64,000 nt of DNA from Anaerolinea sp. (GTDB lineage: Bacteria; Chloroflexota; Anaerolineae; Anaerolineales; Villigracilaceae): positions 1-64,000 of the forward strand of contig JAIFNG010000109.1 in NCBI GenBank assembly GCA_020047815.1. The letters are read 5' to 3'. Shown here piece after piece: positions 40,775 to 59,191 of the stretch. Position 1 is the first letter of the stretch. Each line of letters begins with the position of its first letter. The translations under genes were made by a program, and so were the position numbers. The notes under the pieces are model-generated. The model saw only the letters and a program-made list of their open reading frames with translations. It did not search any database and was not told the origin of the DNA.

Positions 40775-40776
40775 TC

Positions 40777-44157: not shown

Positions 44158-46278
44158 ATGACCCTATCAAAATCCCTTGAGAAAATATTCGCGATGATCC
44201 TGTTCACAGGCTTACTGCTTGGTTCCTGTTCCGAGCTATTCCATGCGGCATGGGGAACTGGAATCAGGTTCGGCCAGTTTTCTCCTGTCTGGTTGGTGAT
44301 CTTCACGGCATTTTGCGCCTTTTGTATTTTGATGGCAAGCCTGCTTGGGTTCTGGCTCTGGAATGAAAAGTTGCATGAGGTCATCAGCGGCAGACTGATC
44401 GACCTTCGAGAACACTCCCCCCTGCTTCGCCTGTCAATACTGATCCTTGCGCTGGTTGTCCCAATTTGGTTCTTTCAATACAGCATGTGGGGGATCGTAT
44501 TTCAGGGTATAGCCCTTCGCCTGCTGGTGTGGGTCGTGGTGCTCGCACTCCTCTCTGTTTTCCTGAGCCGCGGGACGGAACTGGTCAAATGGACTGACTT
44601 TTTTGGTGCGCTTGTCATTTCTGCAAGCACCTTTGCCATCTTTGCCGGCTTAAAATATGTTACGAATTATCCATTTTCATTGGGCTGGTCCGAAGGAAAC
44701 CGATTATGGGATTATTCAATACTGTTTGGGAAAGACAGGTATATTTACCCATTCGATAAAAAAATCTTTGTATTTTTGGATACTGGAAGACAATTTGTTG
44801 GAGCCATACCCTTTCTATTTCCACAACTATCCATTGGGGCTGCGCGCGCCTGGGTTGGTTTACTAGGCGTTCTTCCATATTTATTACTCGGATTTATTTC
44901 ATTTCGCTCGCTTCACCACAAGAAAAAACTTTGGGTGCTAATGGGGTTATGGACATTTTTATTTCTGGGACAGGGACCTATTCACACACCCCTTATTCTG
45001 GGCGCAGCTCTGGTGTCACTTGCCTGGGGTAATTCGTTTTGGCTGGCTATTCCACTGATGCTCCTATCTGGATATTTTATTAGCATTAGCAGGATTACAT
45101 GGATGTTCGCCCCGGCGATCTGGATTATTTTATTAGAGCTTACACAATTTGAATCCATTCGTACAGGATTTTTAAAAAATACTGCGCTAAAACGATCGTT
45201 TGTGCTGGCTTTTTCCGGGCTTGCAGGAAATAAGATACTGCCTTTATTTATTTCCTATCTGAAAAATCCAATTAATTCGGACAATGCTGTCATGGCCGCA
45301 CCCAGCGTATTCAAGGCCACACCCAGCGTGTTAATGATCGCCGAAAGCCTGCGTGAAATCCTGACCCGGCAGCCGCTTTTATGGTATCGCCTGCTCCCCA
45401 ACCAAACCTACAATGAAGGCATCCTGTTCGGAATATTATTAGCGGCAACCCCGATTGTATGCCTGCTGTATTATCTTGTGCAAAAAAAGGGATTGATAAA
45501 AAGCGGTTTGCAGAAATTGGGAATTATTCTGTCTTTATTTGCCTTTTTGGGGGTCGGGTTGATCATCAGCGCAAAAATAGGCGGCGGAGGGGATTTACAT
45601 AATGTTGACATGTTCCTGATCACCTTGTTTTTTACCGTGGTCATCGTTGTATTTAATGGGGGTGACGGCTGGCTGGAGACGATCAGGACCGAATCAAAAG
45701 GGATAAAGCTATTGATCGTGCTGTCCATCGTGATCCCTGCCCTGGGTCCGCTGCAGGCGATGCGCTCCCATCAGTTCAGTGAAAGAGCTGCGACCCTGAT
45801 GACCCTGACAGATGTTGGGAACGAGAGAACGCTTGAACTTTACCCGCCGCAGGATGTTATCGATGAGACATTGGCCATGATCCAATCTCAGGCTGACAGC
45901 GCACTTGAAAAAGGTGATGTATTGTTTTTGGATCAAAGGCAGCTGCTCACTTTCGGCTACATCACCCATGTGCCCCTGATCCCCGAGTATGAAAAAAAAG
46001 TATTGATGGAACAGGCGCTCGCCTCAGACCGGATCTATTTTGACGGCTTTTATCAGGACTTAAAAGACCATCGTTTTGGGCTGATCGTGACGCAACCGCT
46101 GGTGACATCCAAAAAAGGGGAGCCCTTCCAGTTTGGAGAGGAAAACGATGCCTGGTTAAATTGGGTTTCCAAACCTTTATTATGTTATTACCAGGCAAAG
46201 GAAACTTTTCGCGAGGCTGGCGTACAACTATTGATCCCCAGGGAAGGCGCGATAGACTGCAGCGATAAACTGCCCTAA
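44158..46278 (+). CDS. Large polytopic membrane protein of unknown function
   Basis: The 706-residue protein has about twelve to fourteen hydrophobic helices up to residue about 540 (for example AMILFTGLLLGSCSELFHAA, LSILILALVVPIWFFQYSMW) and a soluble C-terminal region of about 165 residues (ALEKGDVLFLDQRQLLTFGY onwards). The loop after the N-terminal helices (FSLGWSEGNRLWDYSILFGK) carries acidic residues in a GT-C-like position, so a membrane glycosyltransferase is possible. The ATG at 44158 is chosen because the upstream in-frame codons start with TTG. It is the first gene after the palindromic element, divergent from the sulfotransferase. Confidence 0.65.
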   Translation: MTLSKSLEKIFAMILFTGLLLGSCSELFHAAWGTGIRFGQFSPVWLVIFTAFCAFCILMASLLGFWLWNEKLHEVISGRLIDLREHSPLLRLSILILALVVPIWFFQYSMWGIVFQGIALRLLVWVVVLALLSVFLSRGTELVKWTDFFGALVISASTFAIFAGLKYVTNYPFSLGWSEGNRLWDYSILFGKDRYIYPFDKKIFVFLDTGRQFVGAIPFLFPQLSIGAARAWVGLLGVLPYLLLGFISFRSLHHKKKLWVLMGLWTFLFLGQGPIHTPLILGAALVSLAWGNSFWLAIPLMLLSGYFISISRITWMFAPAIWIILLELTQFESIRTGFLKNTALKRSFVLAFSGLAGNKILPLFISYLKNPINSDNAVMAAPSVFKATPSVLMIAESLREILTRQPLLWYRLLPNQTYNEGILFGILLAATPIVCLLYYLVQKKGLIKSGLQKLGIILSLFAFLGVGLIISAKIGGGGDLHNVDMFLITLFFTVVIVVFNGGDGWLETIRTESKGIKLLIVLSIVIPALGPLQAMRSHQFSERAATLMTLTDVGNERTLELYPPQDVIDETLAMIQSQADSALEKGDVLFLDQRQLLTFGYITHVPLIPEYEKKVLMEQALASDRIYFDGFYQDLKDHRFGLIVTQPLVTSKKGEPFQFGEENDAWLNWVSKPLLCYYQAKETFREAGVQLLIPREGAIDCSDKLP

Positions 46279-46373
46279 ACCCGGCAATAAAAACAGGCAT
46301 TAATCTGGCATGAAAATTAAGTGACCCAAACCCTGCTCCGGGGTTCTAAATTCGGAGAAAGGGATCTCATTTG

Positions 46374-46964
46374 ATGAAAACGATCTTTAATACACCTGTC
46401 CTTAGCAAATTATTTCATTATGGATCAATACTGATGTTCCGCCTGGCGGGATGGCGCGTGGAGGGGACTCTGCCCGACCTCCCAAAGTACATCATCATTG
46501 GCGCGCCCCACACCTCGAACTGGGATTTCATCCTTTTCCTGGGTGTGATCTTTCGCCTGAGAGCGAATGTCCGCTTTATGGGCAAGGCGGAATTATTCAA
46601 GAAACCGATCGGCTGGTTCTTCCGCTGGAGCGGAGGCATCCCTGTTGACCGCTCCAAATCCTCGGGGCTGGTGGAGCAGATGGTGGATGCGTGCAACCAG
46701 TCTGAAAAGTTCATCCTGACCATCGCCCCCGAAGGAACGCGGCATGGGGTCAAGGAGTGGAAGCGTGGTTTTTATCACATCGCCAAAAGCACGGGGATCC
46801 CGATCGTGATGGCTAAGGTAGATGGCAGGCACAAGACCATGCGCGTGGGCGAAATATTTTATCCCACAGGGGACATGGAGGCGGACATGAAGGCAATTAA
46901 AGACGCATTCAAGGGACTGGCGGGGATCAATCCGCCCAAAAAGTATATTCCGCTGGAAGAGTAA
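46374..46964 (+). CDS. Lysophospholipid acyltransferase (PlsC-like)
   Basis: The 196-residue protein has the LPLAT motifs IIGAPHTSNWDFILFLGVIF (HX4D catalytic motif: His-Thr-Ser-Asn-Trp-Asp), FMGKAELFKKPIGWFFRWSG, GGIPVDRSKSSG and LTIAPEGTRHGVKEWKRGFY (EGTR). It acylates lysophosphatidic acid or a similar acceptor at the membrane. It is shorter than typical PlsC and belongs to the compact subgroup. The adjacent start TTG at 46371 is not preferred over ATG 46374. The gap from 46279 to 46373 shows no clear element apart from a possible GGAG (46354). Confidence 0.88.
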   Translation: MKTIFNTPVLSKLFHYGSILMFRLAGWRVEGTLPDLPKYIIIGAPHTSNWDFILFLGVIFRLRANVRFMGKAELFKKPIGWFFRWSGGIPVDRSKSSGLVEQMVDACNQSEKFILTIAPEGTRHGVKEWKRGFYHIAKSTGIPIVMAKVDGRHKTMRVGEIFYPTGDMEADMKAIKDAFKGLAGINPPKKYIPLEE

Positions 46965-46983: not shown

Positions 46984-47457
46984 ATGATCATTGACCGGAT
47001 CGAAAACTCACACCTGTATCATACATTACACCCCGGATTTAAACGGGCATTTGATCACATCCATCACATCGACGTGGATTCGGTCCCCGTTGGAAAACAG
47101 GAAATAGACGGTGAAAAAATGTACGTCCTGGTTCAGGAATACAACACGAAACCATTCGAACAGGGCGTTTGGGAGGCACACCGCCGCTATATTGATCTGC
47201 AGTACGTGGTTCAAGGCGCAGAGGGGATCGGCTATGCCAATATCAATCACCTGGGTCAGGGAAATTACGATCCAAACAAGGACTTTTTGCCCCTGCACGG
47301 AGCAGGAGATCTTGTGACCCTGCGCAGTGGTTGTTTTATGATTCTTATGCCCGAAGATGCTCACATGCCCGGAATTGCCATTGCCGCCCCAGCCCCGGTC
47401 AGGAAGATCGTTATCAAGATATCGATCGACCAGGACGAAACCCGCCCGCCGGCTTAA
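46984..47457 (+). CDS. YhcH/YjgK/YiaL (NanQ-like) family protein
   Basis: The 157-residue cupin-like protein has the family features YVLVQEYNTKPFEQGVWEAH, RRYIDLQYVVQGAEGIGYAN and LRSGCFMILMPEDAHMPGIA with metal-binding His/Glu (EAHRRYID, EDAHMPG). The family includes the sialic acid anomerase NanQ (YhcH) and the YiaL sugar-processing proteins, which act on acidic-sugar anomers. A SD of the AAGAGGA kind precedes the ATG. Its stop overlaps that of the convergent GntR gene (47454-47457). Position next to an acidic-sugar regulator and transporter supports a catabolic role. Confidence 0.88.
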   Translation: MIIDRIENSHLYHTLHPGFKRAFDHIHHIDVDSVPVGKQEIDGEKMYVLVQEYNTKPFEQGVWEAHRRYIDLQYVVQGAEGIGYANINHLGQGNYDPNKDFLPLHGAGDLVTLRSGCFMILMPEDAHMPGIAIAAPAPVRKIVIKISIDQDETRPPA

Positions 47458-48152
47458 AAAGTCCCCACATACTGGTCGATGCGTTTCTTGATATGGTCAA
47501 AATGCTGTAATAATTGTTTGCGGGTCCTATCCGGGTCGCCGCTTCGAATTGCGTCCAATATGGAATGGTGAAACTGCAGCACACTTTCAGGGTCGGCATC
47601 ATGAGTGATCTCATTCTCAAGGTTGGTAAAGGCGATCCAAAAGGCTGAAAAGAGATTCATTAAAGTCTGGTTATCCAAAACGCCATAAATGATCTGATGG
47701 AATGATTCATCGAGATCGGAATATTCCTCACCGTCCCGCACCCGCTCCTCCCATTCCTTTAAGACCGCCTCAAGCCTGGTCAGGTCTTCAGCAGTGAGAT
47801 GTCCCACCGCGTCACCAATAACCGACACCTCAAGCCAGGTGCGGATCTGCAGCAACTCGACAAGGGTGTTGGGGTCAAATTTCATGCCAAAGATAAACGC
47901 CTCCAGCATGGGGTCAAAGTTTAATTCCCGCACATACAGACCATCCCCCTGACGGACATCCACGATCCCCACAGATTGCAGAGATTTGACCGCCTCCCTG
48001 ACGGAACTTCGACCCACGCCCAGGTCCTCCACCAATTGACCCTCTGGAGGAAGAGGGTCTCCAGGTTTTAAGTCATTTTCCAAGATGTATTGCTTTATAT
48101 AGTCACGAACGGCTGTATATAAAGCCGGTCCTCGCAACGATTGTTTCATCAT
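47454..48152 (-). CDS. FadR/FCD-type GntR transcriptional regulator
   Basis: The protein of about 232 residues has an N-terminal winged helix (PLPPEGQLVEDLGVGRSSVR, then EAVKSLQSVGIVDVRQGDGL) and a C-terminal FCD domain with likely metal ligands in SDLDESFHQIIYGVLDNQ and FHHSILDAIRSGDPD. FCD regulators bind organic or sugar acids and often repress the neighbouring transport genes. It is divergent from the ABC transporter operon and separated by a gap holding a consensus promoter and a 28-bp palindrome, its probable operator. The ATG at 48152 is preferred: TAAAAT ends 7 bases upstream and GGAGAG lies in the spacer. Confidence 0.9.
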   Translation of the reverse strand: MMKQSLRGPALYTAVRDYIKQYILENDLKPGDPLPPEGQLVEDLGVGRSSVREAVKSLQSVGIVDVRQGDGLYVRELNFDPMLEAFIFGMKFDPNTLVELLQIRTWLEVSVIGDAVGHLTAEDLTRLEAVLKEWEERVRDGEEYSDLDESFHQIIYGVLDNQTLMNLFSAFWIAFTNLENEITHDADPESVLQFHHSILDAIRSGDPDRTRKQLLQHFDHIKKRIDQYVGTF

Positions 48153-48360
48153 ACTCTCCATTTTAAACCTGCATAACCGGAAGATATTTGCTACAACTGC
48201 CAAAATACGGGGGCGGGATATAACGCTAAAGTAATGTTACCACAGGCAACTTTGGATCATCTCAAACAGAAATAAAATCCATACTGGTTTTGACCTTCAA
48301 ATGCGGGAGAGCTTTTTATATGGAGGGCGCAGGCTCCATTAATGAAATTAGGATTCCTTA

Positions 48361-48389
48361 TTGACAAGTAGCCACAAATTTTGTAAAAT
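48361..48389 (+). promoter_or_regulatory. Consensus sigma-70 promoter of the sugar-uptake operon
   Basis: TTGACA (48361-48366), an exact 17-base spacer and TAAAAT (48384-48389). The expected transcript start is about 48396, giving a leader of nearly 190 bases. The rest of the 48153-48582 gap holds the operator described below and no gene. Confidence 0.8.
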
Positions 48390-48400
48390 GCTTTTATCAT

Positions 48401-48428
48401 GTAAGACATCAGACATCTGATATCTTAC
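48401..48428. promoter_or_regulatory. 28-bp palindromic operator (probable GntR site)
   Basis: The arms GTAAGACATCAGA and TCTGATATCTTAC around a central CA differ from perfect symmetry by one position. It starts about 5 bases after the predicted transcript start, the place for a repressor. The divergent FCD-GntR gene is the likely source of the binding protein. Confidence 0.75.
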
Positions 48429-48582
48429 TATCTCTGATTTTAGCTTATTTCTTATTCCACGTCAACTTTGTCGAAAAAAGTCAATCAGGAGGTTATTTAT
48501 CGCCCAAATATGAACAACCGACAGTCAAGCACGAGCTTTTTGGATTTCGTATATTTCAAGAGATTCTTCCAAGGAGAAAATG

Positions 48583-49998
48583 ATGAAAAAACTTACGTTT
48601 CTATTTGCTGTACTTGCGATCTTAAGCATTCTATTGGCATCCTGCGCCCCACAGGCTACTGAAGCTCCCGCTGTCGTGGAACAACCAGAAGAGGCGGCTG
48701 AGCCTGCAACCGAGGCGCCAACCAGCGAACCGGTCAAGGAAATTACGATCACCTACTGGGCCTTCGGCAGCGAAGGCGCTGCCATGGCTGATGGCACCCT
48801 GTGGACAGACTGGTACGCCAAGATCTTTGATGAATACGAGGCGGCACACCCAGGCATCACCATTGACTTCGGGCTCAAAGGCTACGATGCCAGCGGCAGT
48901 ACGCTGGTGGTTGACACAGCCGTCGCGGCAGGGACCCCGCCCGATATTTACTTCGATACAAAATTCCGCGTCAAGAAATATCAAGACACGAACCTGCTGG
49001 AAGATCTAAGCCCCGCGTTAACCGCGGATGATATTGCGGTTTATGACCCGGTCTCCATCGAAGGCTCAAAGAGCGGCGATATGATGTGGAGCATCCCCGC
49101 GGATGGCGGCTACTGGAATATGATCGTCAACAAGACCCTGTTCGAGAAGGCTGGCGCAGCGGATATGCTGCCTCAGGCTCCAGACTACAGCTGGACAACC
49201 GACGAATTCATGGCGGCATGCGAAGCGATCAATGACCCCGGTAACAATGTGTACTGCACTGCATTCTTTGCAGGCAGCACTTCGATGGACTCAGCCACCA
49301 ATCAATGGCTGGCAGGCTTTCCCGAATGTAAATTCTTTGATGCGGCAGCAACCCAATATACGGTTAACAGCCCGGCTTGTGTGGAAGCATTCACCTTCAT
49401 GCACACCATCTACGAAAATGGGTACATGGTTCCCGGCGCCGCAGGTTTAATTGACGATACCACCGACCCGTATTGGATGAGCCAGCAAGTGGCTGTGCTT
49501 GGTCAGGGGAACTGGTACGACAGCATTACCAAGAAAGCTGTCGGAGAGGGAGCCATTGAGGCTTTTGATTACATCTTTGTCCAATTCCCGAACAAGCCTG
49601 GCGAACCCGTCACCCCGGTGGGCATGTCCAACCCGGATGTGTGGGGCGTCTTCAAACAGAGTGACCCGGACAAATTGCAGGCGATCTATGACCTGGTTAA
49701 TTATATGCAACAGCCAGATATTGCAGCTGCAATCGCCGTTGGCTGGGGCAAGCTTCCCGTCCGCACTGATGCAGCATTCGAAAGTGATGACCCGTCGGTG
49801 GCTGAACCGCTTGCAGCAGCACGCAAGTTCGGTGCATACGACCCGTATTTTGTGAACGGTGTCCCTTGCAATTACAATGATGTCCGTCAGGCTTGGGCAG
49901 AGGCACGCCAGGCTTTCTGGCAGGATAACGCTGAGGTGCAGGCGATCCTGGATGCTTTTGTAGAACGCGCCAACGGGATAGTTACCAGCTGCCCATAG
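48583..49998 (+). CDS. ABC transporter sugar-binding lipoprotein (SBP family 1)
   Basis: The protein of about 471 residues has a lipoprotein signal peptide (FLFAVLAILSILLASCAPQ; lipidated Cys), an Ala/Glu/Pro/Thr-rich linker to about residue 50, and a family 1 solute-binding fold: EITITYWAFGSEG, IFDEYEAAHPGITIDF, GTPPDIYFDTKFRVKKYQD, MWSIPADGGYWNMIVNKTLF and VNYMQQPDIAAAI near the hinge. It delivers a sugar or sugar acid to the permeases encoded next. AAGGAG (48571-48576) sits at better spacing to ATG 48583 than to ATG 48580. A long hairpin separates it from the permease genes. Confidence 0.92.
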   Translation: MKKLTFLFAVLAILSILLASCAPQATEAPAVVEQPEEAAEPATEAPTSEPVKEITITYWAFGSEGAAMADGTLWTDWYAKIFDEYEAAHPGITIDFGLKGYDASGSTLVVDTAVAAGTPPDIYFDTKFRVKKYQDTNLLEDLSPALTADDIAVYDPVSIEGSKSGDMMWSIPADGGYWNMIVNKTLFEKAGAADMLPQAPDYSWTTDEFMAACEAINDPGNNVYCTAFFAGSTSMDSATNQWLAGFPECKFFDAAATQYTVNSPACVEAFTFMHTIYENGYMVPGAAGLIDDTTDPYWMSQQVAVLGQGNWYDSITKKAVGEGAIEAFDYIFVQFPNKPGEPVTPVGMSNPDVWGVFKQSDPDKLQAIYDLVNYMQQPDIAAAIAVGWGKLPVRTDAAFESDDPSVAEPLAAARKFGAYDPYFVNGVPCNYNDVRQAWAEARQAFWQDNAEVQAILDAFVERANGIVTSCP

Positions 49999-50012
49999 AA
50001 TTCTGTAATTGA

Positions 50013-50068
50013 GACCGTCCCGAAGGCTTGGGGGTAAAAACAAGTTTTATGAAGCCTTCGGGATGGTC
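50013..50068. repeat. 17-bp hairpin between binding-protein and permease genes
   Basis: GACCGTCCCGAAGGCTT (50013-50029) pairs with 50052-50068 with a single G-T position. In many ABC operons such stem-loops protect or raise the upstream binding-protein mRNA. Partial termination is also possible. Confidence 0.7.
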
Positions 50069-50154
50069 CGACCCTGACCCATAAGCCCAAGCTGATCATG
50101 GATCATCACCATGGTTGGGCTCAAAACATTTGCAGGCATAGGAGATTCGGGCTC

Positions 50155-51048
50155 GTGACAAAAATAAAAACTCTAGCCAGTGAAATCCGAAAAGGCTGGG
50201 CAGGCTATCTGTTCATTACCCCAGGCTACCTTGCCTTTATTGCCTTCATGCTGCTCCCCATCCTATTCGCCATCAGCCTGTCGTTTTACAAGGCAACTTT
50301 TGATATCAGCGCCCGGCAGTTCACAGGCTTTGGGCAATACATCCTGTTGAGCAAGGACTTGATCTTTAAACAGGCATTGATCAATACCATAAAATACACG
50401 CTGGTGATCGTGCCTTTAACTGTTCTTATTTCCCTCACCGTTGCCCTGTTGATCGATCCACTGGGCATTAAGGCTCAATCTTTTTTTCGAGGCGCATTCT
50501 ACCTGCCCGGTGTGGCAGGCGGCGTTGTCCTTTCGGTAGTGTACCTGTGGATATTTAATCCCACCTACGGATTGTTCAATTATCTACTGGGGCTGGCCGG
50601 GTTGGAACCGATCCTCTGGCTGGCAACTGCGCCGCACAGTTTTCAGGCTGTTTGCATGGTCGTACTGACCTTTACCATCGGCCAACCCATCATCCTGTTC
50701 CTGGCCGGGTTGGCAGGTATTTCACAGGACATTCTTGATGCCGCCACAGTGGACGGTGCAAGCAACCTGCAAAAAACGTTTTTCATCCGGCTTCCCATGT
50801 TAAGACCGGTGCTGCTATTTGTGCTGGCAACCCAGACCATTCAAGTCTTTCAACTATGGGAAGTGATCTACATGGTCACCGGGGGAGGTCCGTTCAATTC
50901 CAGCACATCACTGGTCTACCTGATCTACCAGACCGCCTTCATTGGCGGCAACTACGGAAAAGCTTCGGCGATCGGTGTGGTCTTGATGGGAATCATCATG
51001 ATCTTCACGCTGGCGCAGTTGAAGTTTTGGAGAGAAACCGATGTGTGA
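50155..51048 (+). CDS. ABC sugar transporter permease, MalF type
   Basis: The protein of about 297 residues has six membrane helices. The first helix is LFITPGYLAFIAFMLLPILF. The cytoplasmic EAA loop is DAATVDGASNLQKTFFIRLP (EAA motif with the conserved Gly), contacting the ATPase. The GTG at 50155 (MTKIKTLAS) is favoured over an in-frame ATG at 50098, as AGGAG lies 10 bases upstream and the extra N-terminus is not hydrophobic or conserved in pattern. The ATPase (MsmX/UgpC type) is not encoded here and must be shared. The MalG-type permease begins 10 bases later. Confidence 0.9.
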   Translation: MTKIKTLASEIRKGWAGYLFITPGYLAFIAFMLLPILFAISLSFYKATFDISARQFTGFGQYILLSKDLIFKQALINTIKYTLVIVPLTVLISLTVALLIDPLGIKAQSFFRGAFYLPGVAGGVVLSVVYLWIFNPTYGLFNYLLGLAGLEPILWLATAPHSFQAVCMVVLTFTIGQPIILFLAGLAGISQDILDAATVDGASNLQKTFFIRLPMLRPVLLFVLATQTIQVFQLWEVIYMVTGGGPFNSSTSLVYLIYQTAFIGGNYGKASAIGVVLMGIIMIFTLAQLKFWRETDV

Positions 51049-51057
51049 GGTAATGTG

Positions 51058-51948
51058 ATGCCTGCCCAGATAAAGAAACAAGATGCCCTCCGCAGTGCAA
51101 TGGAAAGATCAACCCGGTTCATCAGTTACACCCTGTTGACCGCATTTGCCGTCACCTTCCTTCTGCCGCTGTATTGGATGTTTACGGGTTCCTTCAAACT
51201 TCAAACCGTAACGATGGCTGTGCCGCCTGAGTTCATCCCAATTCACCCGACCCTTGAAAATTGGATCAGACTCTTCACAGGACCCTGGCCGATCTGGCGC
51301 TGGGTCCTCAATAGTGCTGCCGTCTCCCTGTTGACCGTGGTTTTGGTCCTGATCGTCAGTTCGTTGACCGGCTATGGATTTGGCAAGAAAAAATTCCCCG
51401 GCTCGAATATTCTCTTTTTCATTCTTCTATCCACCATGTTCCTGCCTAATCAAGTGATGCTCATCCCGCTCTTTTTGCTGGTACGGTATCTGCACCTGAC
51501 CTCCACCCTGCTTGGCACATACTTCGCGATGGCAATGCCGATGATCTCATCCCCATTCGGCATTTTCCTGATCAAACAATTTTGTTCCACCATTCCAGAT
51601 GAATTATTGGATGCCGCCCGCATCGATGGCGCATCCGAATGGCAGGTCTTTACGCGCATCGTGCTACCTTTGCTAAAGCCTGCCCTGGCGGCACTATCCA
51701 TATTCACCTTCAACCAGGCCTGGAATTATTTCATGTGGCACATGGTTCTGGCTACAGACAAATTCCAATACACTGTTCCCGTCGGGGTCTCGATCATCTC
51801 CCGCACACCGGCGATCGGCAAGATGCTGACGGACATCGGCATTACCATGGCCGGCGGAAGTTTTGGAGCCGTATTTATGATCGGATTATTCATTGCCTTC
51901 CAGCAGTATTTTATAAAAGGCATCACCTTCGGTGCTGTAAAGGAATAA
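51058..51948 (+). CDS. ABC sugar transporter permease, MalG type
   Basis: The protein of about 296 residues has six membrane helices (YTLLTAFAVTFLLPLYWMFT, then AAVSLLTVVLVLIVSSLTGY) and the EAA loop DAARIDGASEWQVFTRIVLP. The extended periplasmic segment before helix 2 is as in MalG-like proteins. TGAGGT precedes the ATG at 51058; a GTG just before is at poorer spacing. Together with the previous gene it forms the translocation pore for the binding protein's ligand. The symporter gene follows 13 bases later, giving two uptake systems in one operon. Confidence 0.92.
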   Translation: MPAQIKKQDALRSAMERSTRFISYTLLTAFAVTFLLPLYWMFTGSFKLQTVTMAVPPEFIPIHPTLENWIRLFTGPWPIWRWVLNSAAVSLLTVVLVLIVSSLTGYGFGKKKFPGSNILFFILLSTMFLPNQVMLIPLFLLVRYLHLTSTLLGTYFAMAMPMISSPFGIFLIKQFCSTIPDELLDAARIDGASEWQVFTRIVLPLLKPALAALSIFTFNQAWNYFMWHMVLATDKFQYTVPVGVSIISRTPAIGKMLTDIGITMAGGSFGAVFMIGLFIAFQQYFIKGITFGAVKE

Positions 51949-51961
51949 GGAACATACACTC

Positions 51962-53326
51962 ATGATCAATGTAAAAGAAACCCTTTCACGCCGGACAAAG
52001 TTAATGTATGGAGTCGGGGATGCCGGGATCAATCTGGCTGATACGATGGTCGGCTTGCTGTTTGCCATCTTTCTCACAGATGTGGTCGGACTCCGCCCCG
52101 GGCTGGCAGCGCTGGTTGTTTTCATTGGACGCACATTCGATTATGTCAACGACCCGCTGATCGGCTATCTTTCCGACCGCACACGCAGCCGCTGGGGACG
52201 GCGCCGCCCATTCATCCTGTTTGGGATGCTGCCGTTCGCTCTCGCGTACACGCTGCTTTGGTGGATACCACCCATCACCACCCAGACCGGACTCGCGGTC
52301 TATTACGGCCTTGCATTCGTACTTTACGATACCCTGGCGACCATTCTTTACATGCCTTATTTCGCGCTGACCCCTGAATTAACTTCAGACTACGATGAGC
52401 GCACAAGTCTCACCACCTATCGTATGGTTTTCTCGATCCTTGGGGCAATGATCGCCTTTGTTGTTCCCCTGGCAATAATCGGCACCATGAATGCAGAGAG
52501 CGCAAGACGCATTATGGGGGTTGGAGCAGGGGTCGCATTCATCAGCATCCTGCCCATGCTGGCAGTTTTTCTGGGTACCCGTGAAAAGGCGAAATATCAG
52601 GAACAAAAACAGCCCGATCTCAAAGAGTCGATCCTCGCTGCCATAAAAAATAAACCCTTCCTTTATGCCGCAGGCATCTTTTTGCTTGGTTTGACCGCAC
52701 TGGATATTACGCAATCCACGCTGCTCTATTTTCTCAAATACCACTTGCAGCTCGAAGAAAACTATGACCTTGTCTTCGGATTACTGTTCGTTGCTGCGCT
52801 GGTTTCGTTCCCATTTTGGAACTGGGTGGCAAACCGCTGGGATAAAAAACGGGCGGTCATTTTTGGGATGCTTTTCCTCGCCGCCGCGATCATCATGATG
52901 GGCTTCATGCGACCTGAATGGGGGCTGCCCGTCCTTTTGATATTAAGTGCTTTCGTGGGAGTTGGGCTGGGAGCAGTTCAAGTTCTAACCTGGGCCATGA
53001 TCCCCGACGCGGTCGAGTGGGATGAACTGCAAACGGGGCAGCGTCACGAAGGGATGTTCTACAGCCTGGTACAAACCTTGAGAAAGGTCGGTTCTTCACT
53101 CTCCCTGCCGTTCGTGCTGTTGATGTTGGAATGGACCGGTTACGTTGCCAACGCACCAACCCAACCGCGCAGTACGATTATCGGCATTCAATCTTTAATT
53201 GGACCCATCCCCGCTATCTTCCTGTTGATCGGGATCTTTTTCGCAACGCGCTATCCTCTGGATCGAAAACACTTTGCAGAAATTCGGGCGGAATTGGGAA
53301 AACGTCAGACGGGCGAGGCAGAATAG
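51962..53326 (+). CDS. GPH family (glycoside-pentoside-hexuronide:cation) symporter
   Basis: The 454-residue protein has twelve membrane helices and the MelB/GPH signature FIGRTFDYVNDPLIGYLSDR then SRWGRRRPFILFGM, with Asp residues forming the cation site. The loop DEWDELQTGQRHEGMFYSLV-like segment (here VEWDELQTGQRHEGMFYSLV) is also family typical. It imports a sugar or sugar acid with Na+ or H+. AAGGAA precedes the ATG. Placing both an ABC importer and a GPH symporter in the same operon suggests uptake of two related substrates or two affinities. The sialidase-like gene follows after one base. Confidence 0.92.
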   Translation: MINVKETLSRRTKLMYGVGDAGINLADTMVGLLFAIFLTDVVGLRPGLAALVVFIGRTFDYVNDPLIGYLSDRTRSRWGRRRPFILFGMLPFALAYTLLWWIPPITTQTGLAVYYGLAFVLYDTLATILYMPYFALTPELTSDYDERTSLTTYRMVFSILGAMIAFVVPLAIIGTMNAESARRIMGVGAGVAFISILPMLAVFLGTREKAKYQEQKQPDLKESILAAIKNKPFLYAAGIFLLGLTALDITQSTLLYFLKYHLQLEENYDLVFGLLFVAALVSFPFWNWVANRWDKKRAVIFGMLFLAAAIIMMGFMRPEWGLPVLLILSAFVGVGLGAVQVLTWAMIPDAVEWDELQTGQRHEGMFYSLVQTLRKVGSSLSLPFVLLMLEWTGYVANAPTQPRSTIIGIQSLIGPIPAIFLLIGIFFATRYPLDRKHFAEIRAELGKRQTGEAE

Positions 53327-53327
53327 G

Positions 53328-54350
53328 ATGCGCCTTCAGATGAGAACCTGGGAAGTTGGCAAAGACGGCAAACACAACGCCTTCACGGACCTGCTTTTCT
53401 GGCATGATGCCTTCTGGTTGATATATGTTTCATCGCCGTCACATTTTGCAAGCAAGAAAAGCCGTCTGGTGCTTCTACGATCAAACGATGCATTGAATTG
53501 GCAAAAAGTAAAAAGTTTTGATGGGAACGGGCAGGACATCCGCGACCCAAAGTTGGCGGTCATTCAAGGGAATTTGTTTTTATATGCCCTGCTTAATAAG
53601 CGGTTTGACCCCGAGCCGTACAAAACGATCGCCGCCCACAGCAATGACGGAACTACCTGGACACCTTTTGAAGCGGCAGTTCCTGATGGCTGGTTGATGG
53701 GTCGGCCAATCTCATGGGATGAATCCATTTGGTATGCACCCGCGCATCACATTAACCATGGCTCTGCTGTGCTTTACCAGTCAACCGACGGTTTGACCTG
53801 GAAAATTCACAGCACCATCTTTGAAGGCGGGAAAGAACGAGCTGATGAAACAGCCATCCAGTTTTTGAAGGATGGGCGGATCATCGCCGCCAGCAGGCTG
53901 GAAGCAGGAAGCAGTATCTTTGGCAGTCCACAGGCAGGCACATTGATATCTGTCGCTGCGGCTCCTTTCACAGCGTGGGATCAAGTCACCCGAAGCCGCG
54001 TGACCCGCCTGGATGGCCCAACCCTGTTCAGGATTGGAGATCAAGTTTACGCAGTGGGGCGACGCCAGCCCCGGGCCGCTGGTCCTTTCCAATGGATGGG
54101 ATCAGCCTTCAGTCAGAAAAGGACTGCGGTGTTTTTAGTCAAAGAAAATATCGATGGGCTTACCCATCTGACCGATCTGCCCAGCTGCGGAGATACATCC
54201 TACGCAGGTGTTGCGATCACAGGTGGAAAGGTTTTCATCAGTTACTACACCAACGACACAGGCAGGGATCATCCCTGGGTATTGGGGATGCTGCTTCCCA
54301 CACATATTCAAATTGCAGAGATCGAAATTGAAACACTTTTGAGAGGATGA
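53328..54350 (+). CDS. Asp-box (BNR) sialidase-like beta-propeller protein
   Basis: The 340-residue protein has several Asp-box repeats of the SxDGxTW type: SNDALNWQKV (about 50), SNDGTTWTPF (about 105) and STDGLTWKIH (about 145). Other features are GQDIRDPKLAVIQG and GGKERADETAIQFLKDGRIIA (a Glu near the fourth blade). This is the sialidase or glycoside-hydrolase six-blade propeller fold. There is no signal peptide, so it is cytosolic, which is unusual for a sialidase; it may hydrolyse imported glycosides, isomerise, or only bind sugar. The start at 53328 follows the symporter stop by one base; GAGG lies upstream inside that gene. Substrate unknown. Confidence 0.75.
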   Translation: MRLQMRTWEVGKDGKHNAFTDLLFWHDAFWLIYVSSPSHFASKKSRLVLLRSNDALNWQKVKSFDGNGQDIRDPKLAVIQGNLFLYALLNKRFDPEPYKTIAAHSNDGTTWTPFEAAVPDGWLMGRPISWDESIWYAPAHHINHGSAVLYQSTDGLTWKIHSTIFEGGKERADETAIQFLKDGRIIAASRLEAGSSIFGSPQAGTLISVAAAPFTAWDQVTRSRVTRLDGPTLFRIGDQVYAVGRRQPRAAGPFQWMGSAFSQKRTAVFLVKENIDGLTHLTDLPSCGDTSYAGVAITGGKVFISYYTNDTGRDHPWVLGMLLPTHIQIAEIEIETLLRG

Positions 54351-54353
54351 AAG

Positions 54354-55280
54354 ATGAAAGACCTTGGACCCGTTGTTCCCATCGTGACACCGTGCCAGCG
54401 TAACGGCAGTTTTGACCTGGACGGTTTCCGATCCGTATGTAATGAAATGTTGGAAGCAGGTTGTTGTGGAATATTTGTAGCCGGCACGACAGGGCGGGGT
54501 CCCTGGTTCAGTCCTGGCGAACGACAAAAACTTTGCCGCGCTGCCAGCGACCAGATCAACGGGAGAGTGCCGCTATTGGCTGGATGCTCCTCGTCAGGCT
54601 TGCCAGGCATGCTGGGAAACGCGCGCGCGATGGCAGATGCCGGCGCGCAGATTGCGGTGGCAACCGTGCCCGGTTATTTTCACTACAACCAGGCTGAGAT
54701 CGAAACGATCTACATGGAATTTGCCGATGCCTGCCCCCTGCCTGTAATGGTATATGACATCCCTGAATTTACCAATGTAAAACTTGCCAATGATATGGTG
54801 TTGCGGCTGGCGCGGCATGGCAACGTGATTGGCTTCAAAGATTCCAGTGCTGATTTTGAACGTTTTAAAAAATTGATCGATGCCGTGCGATCCTTTCCAG
54901 AGTTTTTTCTCATGCAGGGCAAGGAAAACCTGATCGCCGAGTCTTTGCAGATCGGCGCATCAGGCTTCATCATCAGCCTGCTGCACCTTGACCCGCGCCC
55001 GTTCATCGGGGTTTATCGCGCCGTGCGCGCGGGAAATGGGCAACTGGCAGATCTGATTCAGGCGAAGATCAACCAAATCATCGGGGTGGTCAGAGAAACG
55101 ATTGAGCGCCGCCCTGAATCATCCACACTATTTCATATGCTTAATTATGCCCTTCAAAAACGGGGAGTTTGCAAAAACATCCTGTTGGAGCATGACGAAG
55201 ATGCCCCTGCCTGGGTCCTTGATAATACACAGAAGGCTATTGAATTATGCCTGTCTGCCAATGAATACCTGCAAAGTTGA
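54354..55280 (+). CDS. DapA/NanA family (dihydrodipicolinate synthase-like) aldolase or dehydratase
   Basis: The 308-residue TIM-barrel protein has Schiff-base Lys162 in VIGFKDSSADF and catalytic Tyr134 in VMVYDIPEFTN. The family GTTGE site is GTTGRGPWFS: threonines 45-46 are kept but the Glu is replaced by Arg48. The lyase or synthase families here use pyruvate-type adducts: N-acetylneuraminate lyase, 2-keto-3-deoxy-acid aldolase or dehydratase, or DapA. Context (NanQ-like protein, FCD-GntR regulator, sugar-acid transport) favours a sugar-acid lyase or dehydratase. GAGAGG lies 7 bases before the ATG, 3 bases after the previous stop. It is not in a lysine operon, so a DapA role is unlikely. 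Confidence 0.82.
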   Translation: MKDLGPVVPIVTPCQRNGSFDLDGFRSVCNEMLEAGCCGIFVAGTTGRGPWFSPGERQKLCRAASDQINGRVPLLAGCSSSGLPGMLGNARAMADAGAQIAVATVPGYFHYNQAEIETIYMEFADACPLPVMVYDIPEFTNVKLANDMVLRLARHGNVIGFKDSSADFERFKKLIDAVRSFPEFFLMQGKENLIAESLQIGASGFIISLLHLDPRPFIGVYRAVRAGNGQLADLIQAKINQIIGVVRETIERRPESSTLFHMLNYALQKRGVCKNILLEHDEDAPAWVLDNTQKAIELCLSANEYLQS

Positions 55281-55315
55281 AAATTTGCATTTCAAATGCT
55301 TAAGGAGAAATTTTT

Positions 55316-56560
55316 ATGTCAAATCAAACCAAAACAACAAAAGTCGGGGATGCCTCTGGACGCGGGTCGGTGGCCGGGTATCGTGTGAATTTCCCTGCGC
55401 GAATGCGCACCTATACCGAAGCAGAGATCGAAGCCGTGGTCAATGTGATGCGGAATGCCGAGGTTCAGACGCAGGGGAATTACATGCGGCAATTTGAAGC
55501 GGATTTCAAAGCGTACATTGGCGCCAAACACGCCTTTGCGTTGGACAATTGCACAAATGCCCTGCGTCTGGCTTCAATTCTTTGCCGCATTGGACCCGGA
55601 GACGAAGTGATCGCCCCGGGCTATACATTTTGCGCATCCGCCATTCCCTTCGGGGCAACAGGAGCCACCCTGGTCTGGGCAGATATTGACCCGCAAACCT
55701 GGGTGGTTGACCCGCAGGATATTGAGAAGAAGATCACACCGCGCACAAAAGTCCTGCTGGTGGTCCATCTACTGGGGATGCCCGTTAACATGCCTGCTGT
55801 GATGGAAATTGCCCAAAAATATAATCTGCGCGTGGTTGAAGATTGCGCTCAGGCGCCGGGCGCTTCGATCAACGGAAAAAAAGTTGGGAGCTTCGGAGAC
55901 TTCGGTTGTTTTAGTCTTCATGGCGCAAAAAATATCACCACCCTGGGTGAGGGCGGCGTCCTGACAGTCAATTCGGATGCAGATGCAGCGCTGACCCCTG
56001 GCTTGCGTCACAACGGCGTACGTCCATTCTCCGGGGACCGTGATCGCTACTGGGTTCCTGCCATGTCCAATGTCGACATGGACATGGAGGGCATCTGGCC
56101 TAACAATTTCAGTATAGGGGAAGCACAATGCGCGCTTGGCAGTGAATTATTGAAGACGCTTGATGAGTCAAACGATAAAATAATTGCTCAGGCTGCAAAA
56201 CTGCGCGCCGCGCTAGCGAACATTCCTGAGATCACATTTGCGAAAATTCCTGACGGCTACCGGCCCATCTTCCATCAATTTGTCCTGCATTTTAACGGCT
56301 CAGCCTTCGGAAAGAACCGCAACGATCTGCTGGACTTCCTAACCGAAGAGGCCGGTGTCCGCGCCATCGTTCAATATTATCCACTTTATCGCTATCCACT
56401 TTTCCAGAGATTGGGTATGGCAGAACAAAATTGCCCCGTGCTTGAGGATTGGTGGGATAACTCTTTCAGCCTGCCATGGTGGATCGGCATGCCCGATGAA
56501 ACGCTGGATTACCTGGTTGATTCGGTTAAGGCAGGCATCTCAGCATTGAAGGAACGATAG
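55316..56560 (+). CDS. DegT/DnrJ/EryC1 family aminotransferase
   Basis: The 414-residue PLP enzyme has catalytic Lys205 in CFSLHGAKNITTLGEGG, the PLP-binding Asp176 in VVEDCAQAPGASI, and FALDNCTNALRLASILCRIG (phosphate loop). Members transfer an amino group to a nucleotide-linked or free keto sugar; some act in sugar-acid catabolism. AAGGAG precedes the ATG at 7 bases. The N-terminal 25 residues are a basic, unstructured extension. In this operon it probably acts with the aldo/keto reductase (gap of 2 bases) and lyase on an amino or keto sugar; direction cannot be told. Confidence 0.88.
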   Translation: MSNQTKTTKVGDASGRGSVAGYRVNFPARMRTYTEAEIEAVVNVMRNAEVQTQGNYMRQFEADFKAYIGAKHAFALDNCTNALRLASILCRIGPGDEVIAPGYTFCASAIPFGATGATLVWADIDPQTWVVDPQDIEKKITPRTKVLLVVHLLGMPVNMPAVMEIAQKYNLRVVEDCAQAPGASINGKKVGSFGDFGCFSLHGAKNITTLGEGGVLTVNSDADAALTPGLRHNGVRPFSGDRDRYWVPAMSNVDMDMEGIWPNNFSIGEAQCALGSELLKTLDESNDKIIAQAAKLRAALANIPEITFAKIPDGYRPIFHQFVLHFNGSAFGKNRNDLLDFLTEEAGVRAIVQYYPLYRYPLFQRLGMAEQNCPVLEDWWDNSFSLPWWIGMPDETLDYLVDSVKAGISALKER

Positions 56561-56562
56561 AT

Positions 56563-57474
56563 ATGAACTACAGGATGCTTCCCAAAACCGAGCTGGAAGT
56601 CTCTGCGTTATGTTTGGGTACGATGACCTTTGGCACTCCCGTTGTAAAGGCAGATGCAATTCAACTCACACATTGGGCATTGGATCACGGCATCAATTTT
56701 TTGGATACCGCAAACATGTATGAAGGCTATACAAGGGTTCCGGGTTCTGCCGGGGGTGTTGGAGAGGAAATTCTGGGCAAGGCACTGGAAGGCAGGCGCG
56801 GACAGGCAGTGGTGGCTACAAAGGTCGGCATGAAGATCGGACATGCAGACAATGACCAGGGGGCGAGCCGTGAGCACATTCTGCGCGAGATGGACCGCTC
56901 CCTGGTCCGTCTGGGATGCGATTATGTAGACCTGTACTACATGCATAAATTCGACCCCTCTGTTCCACTGGCCGAGTCCGCACAGGCGTTCAATGATCTG
57001 ATCGATATGGGTAAAATCCGCTACTGGGCGATCTCCAATTTCACTGCGGAACAAATAACAAATCTGCTGAAGGTCTGCGATGAAAACGACTGGCGGCGGC
57101 CTGTGGCATTGCAGCCTGCATACAGCCTGCTGAAGCGTGACATTGAGGCCGAAATATTGCCGCTCTGCCAGCGCGAACAGATCGCAGTTCTGCCCTATCA
57201 AGTATTGCAAGGCGGTTTGCTGACTGACAAATATCAACGCGGCATGGAAGCGCCCAAAGATTCGCGCCAGGTGGAAAAGCCTGAATGGACAATGGCTCTC
57301 ACCCATGAGATGTTCGATCAACTGGCCCAGATCAAAGCCGAAGCACATAAGCAGGGACGGACTCTGCTCGAACACGCGCTGAAAAGCTTGTTGGAAAAGC
57401 CCGCCATCCCCTCACTGGTGATCGGTGTAAAAAATATAGCCCAACTTGAACGGTTGATCATGGCAATAGAGTAG
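56563..57474 (+). CDS. Aldo/keto reductase
   Basis: The 303-residue TIM-barrel oxidoreductase has the tetrad Asp48, Tyr53, Lys87 and His128 (NFLDTANMYEG, VVATKVGMK, DLYYMHKFDP). LCLGTMTFGTPVV and the C-terminal SLVIGVKNIAQLERL supply the NADP(H) site. It reduces an aldehyde or ketone of a sugar or sugar acid. The start lies 2 bases after the aminotransferase stop, so translation is coupled. It is the last gene of the operon; a strong terminator follows. Substrate unknown. Confidence 0.9.
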   Translation: MNYRMLPKTELEVSALCLGTMTFGTPVVKADAIQLTHWALDHGINFLDTANMYEGYTRVPGSAGGVGEEILGKALEGRRGQAVVATKVGMKIGHADNDQGASREHILREMDRSLVRLGCDYVDLYYMHKFDPSVPLAESAQAFNDLIDMGKIRYWAISNFTAEQITNLLKVCDENDWRRPVALQPAYSLLKRDIEAEILPLCQREQIAVLPYQVLQGGLLTDKYQRGMEAPKDSRQVEKPEWTMALTHEMFDQLAQIKAEAHKQGRTLLEHALKSLLEKPAIPSLVIGVKNIAQLERLIMAIE

Positions 57475-57564: not shown

Positions 57565-59184
57565 CTACCCCTTCAATAAAAAATCCCCGCCCTCCAACAC
57601 GCCATGCTCGATCACCTTGATCGCATCCGCATTCACCAACTCTCCCAACCCAAACGACTTTAACCTGGTCTGGGTTGTGCGGACGGAAGGTTCAAGAAAT
57701 TCTCCAAATGGCAGGGATGTTCTGAATAACTGGTAATACAGAAAGCGGCGGGCGTTGCGTTTGAACTCAAGCGGGACATCGATCGATCCAGCAGACAAAA
57801 ATTCCCGCATCTTTTTTCTTATTTCTTCAGTTGTCTGCGGAAAAAACACAGTGGGATATTGAGTAAATCTTGCCCTGCCCGCGCACAAGACAGGGGCGCC
57901 CATAATGGAGGCCTCGAGCCCGATGGTCGAGTTATAGACCATCACAAACTTTGACTTCAAAATCAACTCATATGAACTAAGCGTTTCCCCAGGCGGCACA
58001 AAAACCACATTGGGCAGGTCCATCACGCGGCGCGCTTCAACCCAGCCTGCCACGGTCTCACGGCTGGCTTTTCGCACACGAGACTCATCGGGATGCGCGC
58101 GGATCACGAACAGGGTCTCAGGGTGTCGTTGAATTTCCTCCAACACCAGATCAAGCCAGACAAACATATCTTCAAAAATAGTATTGGCGTGCGGCTGACT
58201 GGTATCGAAGATAACATTGGTAAAAATGGGGACGATCTGTTTGAAACCTTCCGCCTTGTGCAAAAATGCGCCGTCAAGTCCTTTCATATCCGCCCAGAAC
58301 TTTATGCCCGCCATTGTAAAGTCACCTTGAAAGCGCTTCGCAAGGTACGCATCCAGCTTTGCATTTTGCTCATCATTCAATTCAAATTCATCGGGAATGT
58401 GGATTGGGTATGCCGTTGCTTCGCCTTCGGTGAAATATGCCGTCGCAGGCTGCAGCCCCACTTCATGCGTGATGACCCGCAGCCCGCGCCTGTGAGCCAT
58501 GTAACGGGCAGCCGCCTCGGGGAAGAACTGTCCGTTGAAAACCAGGACAGCCCGGGGTTGAACCTGCTCAAGCATGGCATCAAATTTCTGCGCGACATTC
58601 CACGCCGATAAAATATATTCCCGAAACAGATGGCGTGTATTTTCATCATCCTGCAGATGATGGATCCGCAAGACCCATCTCAAACCAGGCAGACACAGCG
58701 CCCCAAGCGGGATGGTTTGCCATTCAAAGGTTATGAGATCGGGAATGGAAAGATCTTCGATGGCTGCCGCAAGCTGCGGACTGCGTTGATAGTTGAACCA
58801 GTTGACAACCGACGTTGAACGTTGACCGCCTGATGTTTTCACGCCTGCGTACAAAGCCTTCGATTGGAATACACACGACCTGCATGGAGGTTCTTTTTGC
58901 ACATCATCACGATTGGTGCCAAGCACACAATGGCTCATCCCGGAATCACATGCAAAATAGATCACGGGAATTCCCTGTAAACGGAATGCCCACGACGTCA
59001 GCAGATGAAATCCGCTGTTCCATGAGAGATCGTCAATGCCAGTGGAAGCTTTAAAGAAAACGACCGGAGCGCCGTCCGGCAGCGGTTCACGGCTTGCAAC
59101 CTGCCTTGCAACACGGGCGACCTTAAAATTATTAAGCCTGCGGACAAGTCCACGTTTAATGCGTTGAGTGAAGAATTCTTTCAT
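57565..59184 (-). CDS. Capsule-type glycosyltransferase or export protein with cysteine cluster
   Basis: The protein of about 539 residues has a GT-B-like organisation: RGLRVITHEVGLQPATAYFT in the middle, a donor-site-like KFVMVYNSTIGLEASIMGAP and IRAHPDES near residue 390. This resembles capsular polysaccharide proteins of the KpsS/LipB group and polysialyltransferase-like enzymes. A cysteine cluster (CDSGMSHC, then PPCRSC, residues about 110-140) could bind a metal. The ATG at 59184 is chosen: GGTAAAGG lies upstream and 7 bases separate it from the sulfotransferase stop; a longer reading from 59271 would overlap that gene. Surface attachment of an acidic sugar is inferred from neighbours. 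Confidence 0.7.
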   Translation of the reverse strand: MKEFFTQRIKRGLVRRLNNFKVARVARQVASREPLPDGAPVVFFKASTGIDDLSWNSGFHLLTSWAFRLQGIPVIYFACDSGMSHCVLGTNRDDVQKEPPCRSCVFQSKALYAGVKTSGGQRSTSVVNWFNYQRSPQLAAAIEDLSIPDLITFEWQTIPLGALCLPGLRWVLRIHHLQDDENTRHLFREYILSAWNVAQKFDAMLEQVQPRAVLVFNGQFFPEAAARYMAHRRGLRVITHEVGLQPATAYFTEGEATAYPIHIPDEFELNDEQNAKLDAYLAKRFQGDFTMAGIKFWADMKGLDGAFLHKAEGFKQIVPIFTNVIFDTSQPHANTIFEDMFVWLDLVLEEIQRHPETLFVIRAHPDESRVRKASRETVAGWVEARRVMDLPNVVFVPPGETLSSYELILKSKFVMVYNSTIGLEASIMGAPVLCAGRARFTQYPTVFFPQTTEEIRKKMREFLSAGSIDVPLEFKRNARRFLYYQLFRTSLPFGEFLEPSVRTTQTRLKSFGLGELVNADAIKVIEHGVLEGGDFLLKG

Positions 59185-59191
59185 CCGGCCT

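Follow-up and report, generated by a model that had tools for sequence, protein, structure and literature searches.

A conserved operon inserted in a nonulosonate and sulfotransferase locus of an Anaerolineae-type bacterium, with a possible role in the uptake and catabolism of an aminated sugar acid

Which compound would be taken up and degraded through an operon that looks in outline like a sialic acid (nan) operon, with a transaminase and a reductase where the usual pathway genes would be? The question is raised by a gene set in the 64,000-nucleotide stretch of DNA analysed here (the window), from the genome of an uncultured Anaerolineae-type bacterium (4.06 Mb in 192 contigs, 88.84% complete). 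Positions 47454-57474 hold eight genes on the plus strand (48580-57474) and a GntR/FCD regulator divergent from them, the eight in the order SBP (sugar-binding lipoprotein), PermA, PermB, GPH, PROP (propeller), DHDPS (lyase), DegT and AKR (aldo/keto reductase). The operon is real, forms one unit by its DNA layout and is conserved, with a patchy distribution. An earlier note on this DNA had proposed that it may degrade a less common acidic or amino sugar, which is supported in part: a nonulosonic acid (NulO) as substrate is favoured by the sialidase fold of PROP and its match to a pseudaminidase, by the YhcH genes nearby, and by the adjacency of NulO genes in six of the nine family genomes that carry DegT. 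We give a probability of roughly 40% to the reading that the operon, under its own regulator, imports and degrades a glycoside whose sugar acid is an aminated 2-keto-3-deoxy acid, that is, a NulO. The ten genes listed by the note, the neighbouring YhcH included, were recovered at their positions and in their families with Pfam and NCBIfam profiles; the SBP, which had no match in Pfam, was assigned through sequence matches in the PDB.

46984-47457, plus strand: YhcH/DUF386 protein, NanQ-like (PF04074, 143.8 bits), convergent on the regulator, the two open reading frames (ORFs) overlapping by 4 bases
47454-48149, minus strand: GntR/FCD regulator (FCD 85.7 and GntR 65.9 bits), divergent from the operon
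48361-48389, plus strand: sigma-70-type promoter, TTGACA-17-TAAAAT
48404-48425, plus strand: candidate GntR operator AGACATCAGACATCTGATATCT, a repeat aligned across GntR-SBP intergenic regions
48580-49998, plus strand: SBP, sugar-binding lipoprotein of an ATP-binding cassette (ABC) importer (phmmer matches to PDB sugar-binding proteins, e.g. 9s0l, E 6.5e-20)
50098-51048, plus strand: PermA, ABC permease (BPD_transp_1; UgpA-type at 110.6 bits, below the cut-off), true start possibly near 50155
51055-51948, plus strand: PermB, ABC permease (BPD_transp_1; GlcU/UgpE-type, below the cut-off)
51962-53326, plus strand: GPH-family sugar:cation symporter (MFS_2 326.7 bits; TIGR00792 297.5, above the cut-off of 231.35)
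53328-54350, plus strand: PROP, sialidase-fold propeller (PF24067 35.6 bits, above the cut-off of 27)
54354-55280, plus strand: DHDPS, lyase of the DapA/NanA superfamily (PF00701 145.5, above the cut-off of 22.1)
55316-56560, plus strand: DegT/DnrJ/EryC1/StrS aminotransferase (PF01041 291.9 bits) of an operon-specific subfamily
56563-57474, plus strand: AKR (PF00248 209 bits; best PDB match DepB, 8hwn, 170.7 bits)

With nan operons this gene set shares a GntR/FCD regulator, an importer, a YhcH gene nearby, a lyase of the DapA/NanA superfamily and a sialidase-fold protein; unlike them, it has DegT and AKR, no NanE was found (0 matches in the 88.84%-complete genome), the best NagB match genome-wide reached 43.8 bits (cut-off 236.9), and the NanA, NanQ and NanR profiles stayed below their cut-offs. 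The earlier note was therefore right that the set does not match the standard Neu5Ac pathway, and the operon is not one of canonical sialic acid catabolism.

The eight genes look like a single transcription unit, since the gaps from PermA through AKR are only 1-35 bases (99 bases between SBP and PermA). The start of the regulator gene lies more likely at 48149 than at 48203, judging from the starts of its orthologues (65-84% identity in loci L075, L078, L079, L085 and L086; 78% in L146); NanR (NF003011) was its best NCBIfam profile, at 117.1 bits against a cut-off of 260. A promoter of the type TTGACA-17-TAnAAT was present in all seven GntR-SBP intergenic regions examined. The operator pattern was drawn from six of these regions (the window, L075, L078, L079, L085 and L086), each of which carries a repeat of the type AGAYATCWGAYATCTKATATC 1-15 bases after the promoter, with 0-3 mismatches; in the seventh region (L146), kept out of the pattern drawing, the promoter reads TTGACA-17-TACAAT and the repeat, at the corresponding place, has 1 mismatch. 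Unlike the E. coli NanR operator, a GGTATA repeat, the repeat here is of the GATATC type. At up to 3 mismatches it occurred at a single site genome-wide (0 expected in the window), and the neighbouring NulO genes do not carry it; the regulon seems to comprise this one operon. The "one regulated unit" of the earlier note thus stands for the regulator and the genes from SBP to AKR, with a single promoter and operator at 48361-48425, and falls for YhcH, which is probably a gene of the surrounding locus (see below).

Thirteen loci were found in a scan of genome contigs that used the window lyase and its 53% relative as queries. Eight of these (L074-L079, L085, L086), from metagenome-assembled genomes (MAGs) of Anaerolineae/Chloroflexi, have the operon genes in the same order, to the extent that their contigs cover them, at about 52-91% identity; the remaining five (L080-L084) have the lyase, with other members distant or lacking. 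The operon was later also found in L143 (genome G645) and L146 (G685), and DegT with AKR alone in L145 (G670). DegT follows the lyase in all nine operon loci whose contig extends beyond the lyase (the window, L074-L079, L143 and L146), and ten DegT loci comprise these nine and L145, which has no lyase on a contig of 28.4 kb. The same gene order was thus kept in other genomes, L145 being the sole exception, in agreement with the co-conservation that the earlier note had asked for. The distribution is sparse: DegT orthologues were present in 9 of 152 genomes of the window's family, DegT at E<=1e-75 was found only in its own genome among 350 genomes sampled from the phylum, and the lyase subfamily (E<=1e-75) in 4 of 396 genomes of the class. 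DegT relatives outside the operon were sought as a clue to function and gave none at E<=1e-75 in the 350 phylum genomes, the family search yielding only the G670 pair. Two further observations concern these loci: in L078 (2-2657), genes for an Fe-ADH-like protein, a four-carbon acid sugar kinase (PF07005/PF17042) and an RraA-like protein adjoin the regulator, in this one genome; and nearly identical contigs with the lyase and a YhcH-Gfo/Idh fusion (L083, L084) are assigned to two MAGs, one of a methanogen and one of Aminicenantes, which probably reflects the misbinning of a contig.

The SBP has a lipobox-like LLASC (by eye) and orthologues at 73-81% identity, its structure model was set aside (pLDDT 44.6), and no ABC ATPase gene was found within the operon. 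The GPH protein scored 206.6 bits to the glucuronide transporter family, below the cut-off.

The earlier note had called PROP cytosolic and sialidase-like. No N-terminal membrane segment is present in the window copy, which should, as predicted from this, act in the cytosol on imported glycosides; the sialidase likeness is borne out by the fold of the model. This was built with AlphaFold2 on six aligned sequences, those of the window and of five orthologues (pLDDT 87.1, pTM 0.89); the alignment omits the L078 copy, which has one internal stop codon (8958-9989; a sequencing error or decay), and precedes L143 and L146. The model has the propeller fold of the GH33 type: VIA-align placed it at Z 33.3 to 5hx0 and at Z of about 30-32 to many sialidases (2.5-3.0 A over 294-308 residues), and Foldseek ranked 5hx0 first, followed by PA2794 of P. 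aeruginosa (3h6j, 2w38). As a functional guide 5hx0, although the top structural match, was rejected, its own function being unknown. By sequence, single PROP reached sialidases only at E 0.24; a 13-member profile, with seven distant homologues added (L035, L037, L038, L040, L041 and fragments left out), had its best PDB match in PA2794 (E 5e-6), deposited as a neuraminidase/sialidase and titled pseudaminidase, followed by the P. gingivalis sialidase (3e-4) and a sucrose-6-phosphate hydrolase (5e-3).

GH33 sialidases are expected to have a FRIP-type first arginine and an aspartate as acid/base. Both are absent from PROP, which reads HNAFTDL (HNSNT in some homologues) at the place of (Y/F)RIP, an equivalence set by eye, and SPSHF in place of the sialidase Asp loop. 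PROP appears to keep E, R and Y in a sialidase-like order. H39 aligns to His45 of PA2794 (counted from the alignment) and E174/R190 to its NET...R, in a sequence alignment that spans only profile positions 28-193, and R265 and Y292 (in DTSYAG) were matched to the third Arg and the Tyr of sialidases by motif only. In PA2794 a His reportedly replaces the usual Asp, and a preference for pseudaminic acid is said to have been proposed. PROP thus resembles PA2794 in the sialidase fold and the His at H39, and differs from it in that identity is 18% in the Foldseek alignment and the sequence alignment is partial. PROP served poorly as a guide to synteny: a scan of genome contigs with PROP alone gave no matches, and the PROP homologues nearest to it in the sample of the class (46-54%; G267, G290, G067) have an N-terminal membrane segment and adjoin unrelated genes, so the lyase was used instead. 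Such a segment was seen by eye on PROP of L143 and of the relatives L028-L030; the L143 copy (3856-4971 in G645) stands in an otherwise similar operon, which suggests a change of compartment for the hydrolase.

PROP bears as well on another family of substrates, other 2-keto-3-deoxy or uronic acids from foreign polysaccharides (Kdo, 8-amino-Kdo, Dha of rhamnogalacturonan II (RG-II), or an aminated uronate). PF24067, whose cut-off PROP exceeds, is named for the N-terminal propeller of BT_1020, which we take to be an RG-II enzyme; 11 of the 13 PROP homologues scanned matched it at E<=0.01, over an aligned part of only 48-58 residues (profile positions about 38-95 of 236). A lyase relative near a heparinase-like gene (L084) and the glucuronide transporter score of GPH point in the same direction. 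However, no gene of the UxaC or KdgK type was found among the families of the operon, PROP resembles sialidases by structure and PA2794 by sequence, and the KdnA-type transaminase reached 136.1 bits with DegT against 182.8 for the best DegT match. We regard these acids as unlikely substrates.

The lyase has the altered GTTGE motif described in the earlier note: it reads GTTGRGPWF, with R for the usual E. R-G-P-W-F was invariant in 13 of 13 aligned sequences (the window and 12 of the 13 scan loci, L085 being omitted because its lyase reads in two pieces), and the L143 copy, seen later, has RGPWL. Y134 and the Schiff-base K162 of the superfamily were invariant in the same alignment, and both align with 4xky. 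The lyase is thus like 4xky and E. coli NanA in its Tyr and Lys, and unlike them in GTTGRGPWF and in scoring below the equivalog cut-offs for NanA (TIGR00683, 82.2 against 382; NF003164, 98.6 against 281) and DapA (TIGR00674, 127.3 against 206.15). Against the PDB its profile reached 157.5 bits with 4xky, 126.9 with KDG aldolase and 114-118 with NanA. Its neighbours elsewhere were tried as a clue to the substrate and showed no common theme (L081, L082, L084, G211, and G014 with UroD-like, HpcH plus class-II aldolase and short-chain dehydrogenase/reductase (SDR) genes).

None of the lyase, DegT and AKR reached any NCBIfam cut-off. The highest NCBIfam scores of DegT were those of 4-amino-sugar transaminases, PseC (TIGR03588, 219.6 against a cut-off of 423.5) and the WecE type (218.8), both below their cut-offs. 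In the PDB its profile matched best the glutamine:scyllo-inositol transaminase, followed at nearly equal scores by QdtB and perosamine synthetase, and the single sequence placed perosamine synthetase first. DegT shares family and catalytic Lys motif with PseC, perosamine synthetase and scyllo-inosose transaminases (K205 in HGAK, invariant in 7 orthologues) and differs from them in a conserved N-terminal extension of about 30 residues. An analogy with the rhizopine proteins MosA/MosB, a DapA-like protein and a DegT one, was considered as a possibility.

These matches also bear on the catabolism of a neutral sugar or an aminocyclitol glycoside, in which PROP would be a non-sialidase glycosidase and the DapA-like protein would act on a small oxo-acid. 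The likeness of SBP to sugar-binding proteins, the scyllo-inositol transaminase as best DegT profile match, and a genus relative with a GH27 and an AKR gene in the same slot (below) are consistent with it; the constant place of DegT after the lyase and the E, R and Y that PROP appears to keep argue against it, and we consider it distinctly unlikely.

The operon lies within a second set of genes, arranged as follows.

40090-40761, minus strand: CMP-sugar cytidylyltransferase
within 40090-46964, minus strand: acetyltransferase-like gene
42132-43067, minus strand: glycosyltransferase of family 2 (GT2)
43086-44384, minus strand: sulfotransferase
44128-46278, plus strand: membrane protein, not matched in relatives
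46371-46964, plus strand: acyltransferase-like protein
57565-59271, minus strand: capsule-synthesis-like protein, convergent with the operon
59192-60046, minus strand: second sulfotransferase (SULF2)
60099-60980, minus strand: NeuB, short (293 residues)
61052-62269, minus strand: CMP-NulO synthetase fused to a KdsC-type phosphatase (NeuA-HAD)
62321-63148, minus strand: SDR

The first six form the upstream part (40090-46964) and the last five the downstream part of this resident locus, which probably makes a NulO-containing, sulfated glycan coat. It is family-wide and spans 40090-63997 of the window on to contig stretch L133, with two sulfotransferases, two cytidylyltransferases, NeuB, the NeuA-KdsC fusion and the SDR (37% identical to the SDR of L082); beyond the window edge, L133 has a membrane protein followed by a sulfate adenylyltransferase/APS kinase-like protein (by eye), an apparent capacity for PAPS synthesis beside the locus. 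NeuA-HAD was found in 112 of 120 family genomes, and most genomes of the family have this locus and lack the operon; in six (G623, G638, G658, G674, G678, G683) there are two immediately adjacent NeuA-type matches, the second of them partial, and one in-frame TGA.

All five genus relatives compared (L118-L122) have the same downstream order, with extra genes in some, and all five lack the operon, which is therefore an insertion of about 10 kb; upstream, the cytidylyltransferase, GT2, sulfotransferase and acyltransferase likewise keep their order in relatives over the parts covered. This insertion in a conserved NulO/sulfotransferase locus is a feature that the earlier note had not described. 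The acyltransferase and capsule genes are directly adjacent in L118 and L122; between them L121 has a YhcH gene (61% identity to that of the window) and L120 an ORF of 277 residues. In L119 (1-3000, G694) the slot, possibly a site of variable cargo, is occupied ahead of the capsule gene by YhcH (72%, where the stretch starts on the left), by a gene for a GH27 alpha-galactosidase and by one for an AKR.

The YhcH genes in the same slot of the operon-free L119 and L121 indicate that the window YhcH most likely belongs to the resident NulO locus and not to the operon. It scored 108.9 bits with the YhcH/YjgK/YiaL family (TIGR00022, cut-off 45.5) and 100.1 with the NanQ equivalog (NF040884, cut-off 160). 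YhcH genes were found beside the operon in three arrangements: convergent (window), co-directional after the regulator (L086, 45%) and after AKR (L143, 47%); next to the lyase, L084 has a YhcH-Gfo/Idh fusion, as does L083 judging by similarity, and no YhcH was seen within the stretches covered of the remaining operon loci examined. In one study, YhcH aided an aldolase on the mainly cyclic Neu5Ac and KDN and not on 2-keto-3-deoxyxylonate (PMC8141875). Together with the adjacency, this would favour a cyclic C8-C9 acid as substrate of the lyase, tempered by the breadth of the DUF386 family.

DegT adjoins NeuA-HAD in six of the nine DegT-bearing family genomes: G000 (the window), G690, G670 (DegT-AKR only), G685, G666 and G732. 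Of the others, G645 has the operon on another contig (L143) and an operon-free NulO locus (L147), G652 has no NulO genes in the 14.5 kb covered, and in G742 the operon lies at a contig end, where adjacency is not judgeable; G666 and G732 were taken to equal L074 and L077 (identical coordinates), and G690, G652 and G742 to equal L075, L078 and L076. Two placements occur: the genes stand ahead of the capsule gene in the window and L077, and in L075/L144 and L146 they lie between that gene and SULF2, an arrangement of which the capsule side is visible in L085 and the SULF2 side in L074 and L145. Across genomes, operon genes and NulO genes have identities of a similar order, with diverged copies in L143, L079, L086 and L076; the linkage may thus be mostly inherited, and the six adjacencies were not counted as independent.

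Two further explanations involve this placement. In the first, the operon would salvage the NulO of the organism's own coat (of the KDN or neuraminic type) during turnover, DegT and AKR handling a side product or a modified form. It fits the six genomes with DegT inside the NulO/sulfotransferase locus, and the KdsC/KDN-9-phosphatase-like domain of NeuA-HAD, together with the failure to find NeuC genome-wide, fits a 9-hydroxy NulO not made from UDP-GlcNAc. NeuA-HAD is near-universal, however, and DegT rare, and the operon has its own unique operator; KDN would yield mannose, leaving DegT without a role, for which reason KDN was also rejected as a simple substrate. Salvage of the coat is unlikely, a little less so than the other acids above. 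In the second, DegT and AKR would be biosynthetic, supplying the neighbouring glycan locus with an amino sugar made from a sugar either taken up or of internal origin. Pairs of an oxidoreductase and a DegT protein make amino sugars in known pathways, such as NtdC/NtdA and KdnB/KdnA. The placement in a glycan locus agrees with this, as does G670, in which DegT-AKR stand alone (L145, 11283-13459) beside SULF2-NeuB-NeuAHAD-SDR, a lone pair that makes such a role conceivable. Opposed to it are the GntR/FCD control, the importers and the glycosidase-fold protein, an operator not shared with the glycan locus, and the presence of the operon in L143, L078, L079 and L086, without NulO genes within the stretches covered; the G670 pair could also be a deletion remnant (its AKR start differs). 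This is the least probable of the explanations that we weighed. Just upstream of the L145 pair, on the other strand, lie a pair of genes for a thiamine-pyrophosphate enzyme of the sulfopyruvate-decarboxylase type and an aldehyde dehydrogenase gene (by eye).

For a NulO glycoside, the reading that we favour, a route can be proposed. The ABC importer and the GPH symporter would bring the (oligo)glycoside or the free acid into the cell, and cytosolic PROP would release the acid from the glycoside; an anomerase of the YhcH type would open the ring and the GTTGRGPW lyase cleave the acid to pyruvate and an amino-aldose. DegT would then convert the amine to a carbonyl, AKR would reduce it, if the last two steps run in this direction, and the sugar would enter central metabolism through genes elsewhere, the GntR/FCD protein repressing the single promoter until the ligand is present. 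The lead candidate is perhaps an acid of the pseudaminic/legionaminic (Pse/Leg) type, a 5,7-diamino NulO, from the biofilm matrix or from neighbouring cells. The more specific proposal of an operon for the catabolism of di-amino NulOs (Pse/Leg), with a cytosolic sialidase-clan hydrolase of altered active site, a new aldolase subfamily marked by GTTGRGPW and a transaminase and reductase that together undo the biosynthetic 4-amination, is tentative and on the unlikely side. Among the titles and opening lines of abstracts in the open-access literature searched, neither a Pse/Leg catabolic route nor this operon was found.

Several points weigh against a NulO, or against the diamino form of it. PROP exceeds the PF24067 cut-off; the lyase is no nearer to NanA than to other DapA-family proteins, and other members of its subfamily occupy unrelated contexts; the PDB matches of DegT fail to single out 4-amino sugars. 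No deacetylase, kinase or isomerase was found in the operon, and diacylated Pse or Leg would need deacylation prior to transamination. The L079 operon has neither GPH nor PROP, and in G670 DegT-AKR adjoin NulO genes (L145, L155) on a 28.4-kb contig that lacks the importer, propeller, lyase and regulator. The NulO adjacency may be inherited from few events, and the phosphatase fused to the resident NeuA suggests a 9-hydroxy NulO such as KDN rather than Pse or Leg. As to the rest of the genome, contig C46 has PseB above its cut-off (489.6 against 407.75) near a second NeuB-family gene, so the bacterium may produce a sugar related to Pse from genes outside this locus. In this stretch (L132, 6271-9736) genes for methyltransferases and an ABC exporter lie near those for PseB, an RmlD-like reductase and the second, longer NeuB-family protein; they form a second cluster of NulO type, in which no PseC is evident within the stretch.

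In a study of the extracellular polymeric substances of two aerobic and two anaerobic granular sludges, PseAc2/LegAc2 predominated among the NulOs and KDN came second, except in one sludge low in KDN (PMC10483923); its main text nowhere mentions Anaeroline- or Chloroflexi, and the tie between the sludge NulOs and these bacteria is one that we suggest ourselves. If the proposed route is true, it would name enzymes that release and consume NulOs of the Pse/Leg type, which with KDN were the main NulOs in the granular-sludge biofilm matrix studied (PMC10483923), in a testable operon with a defined candidate operator, and would link the synthesis and the consumption of NulOs in one locus of Anaerolineae-type bacteria.

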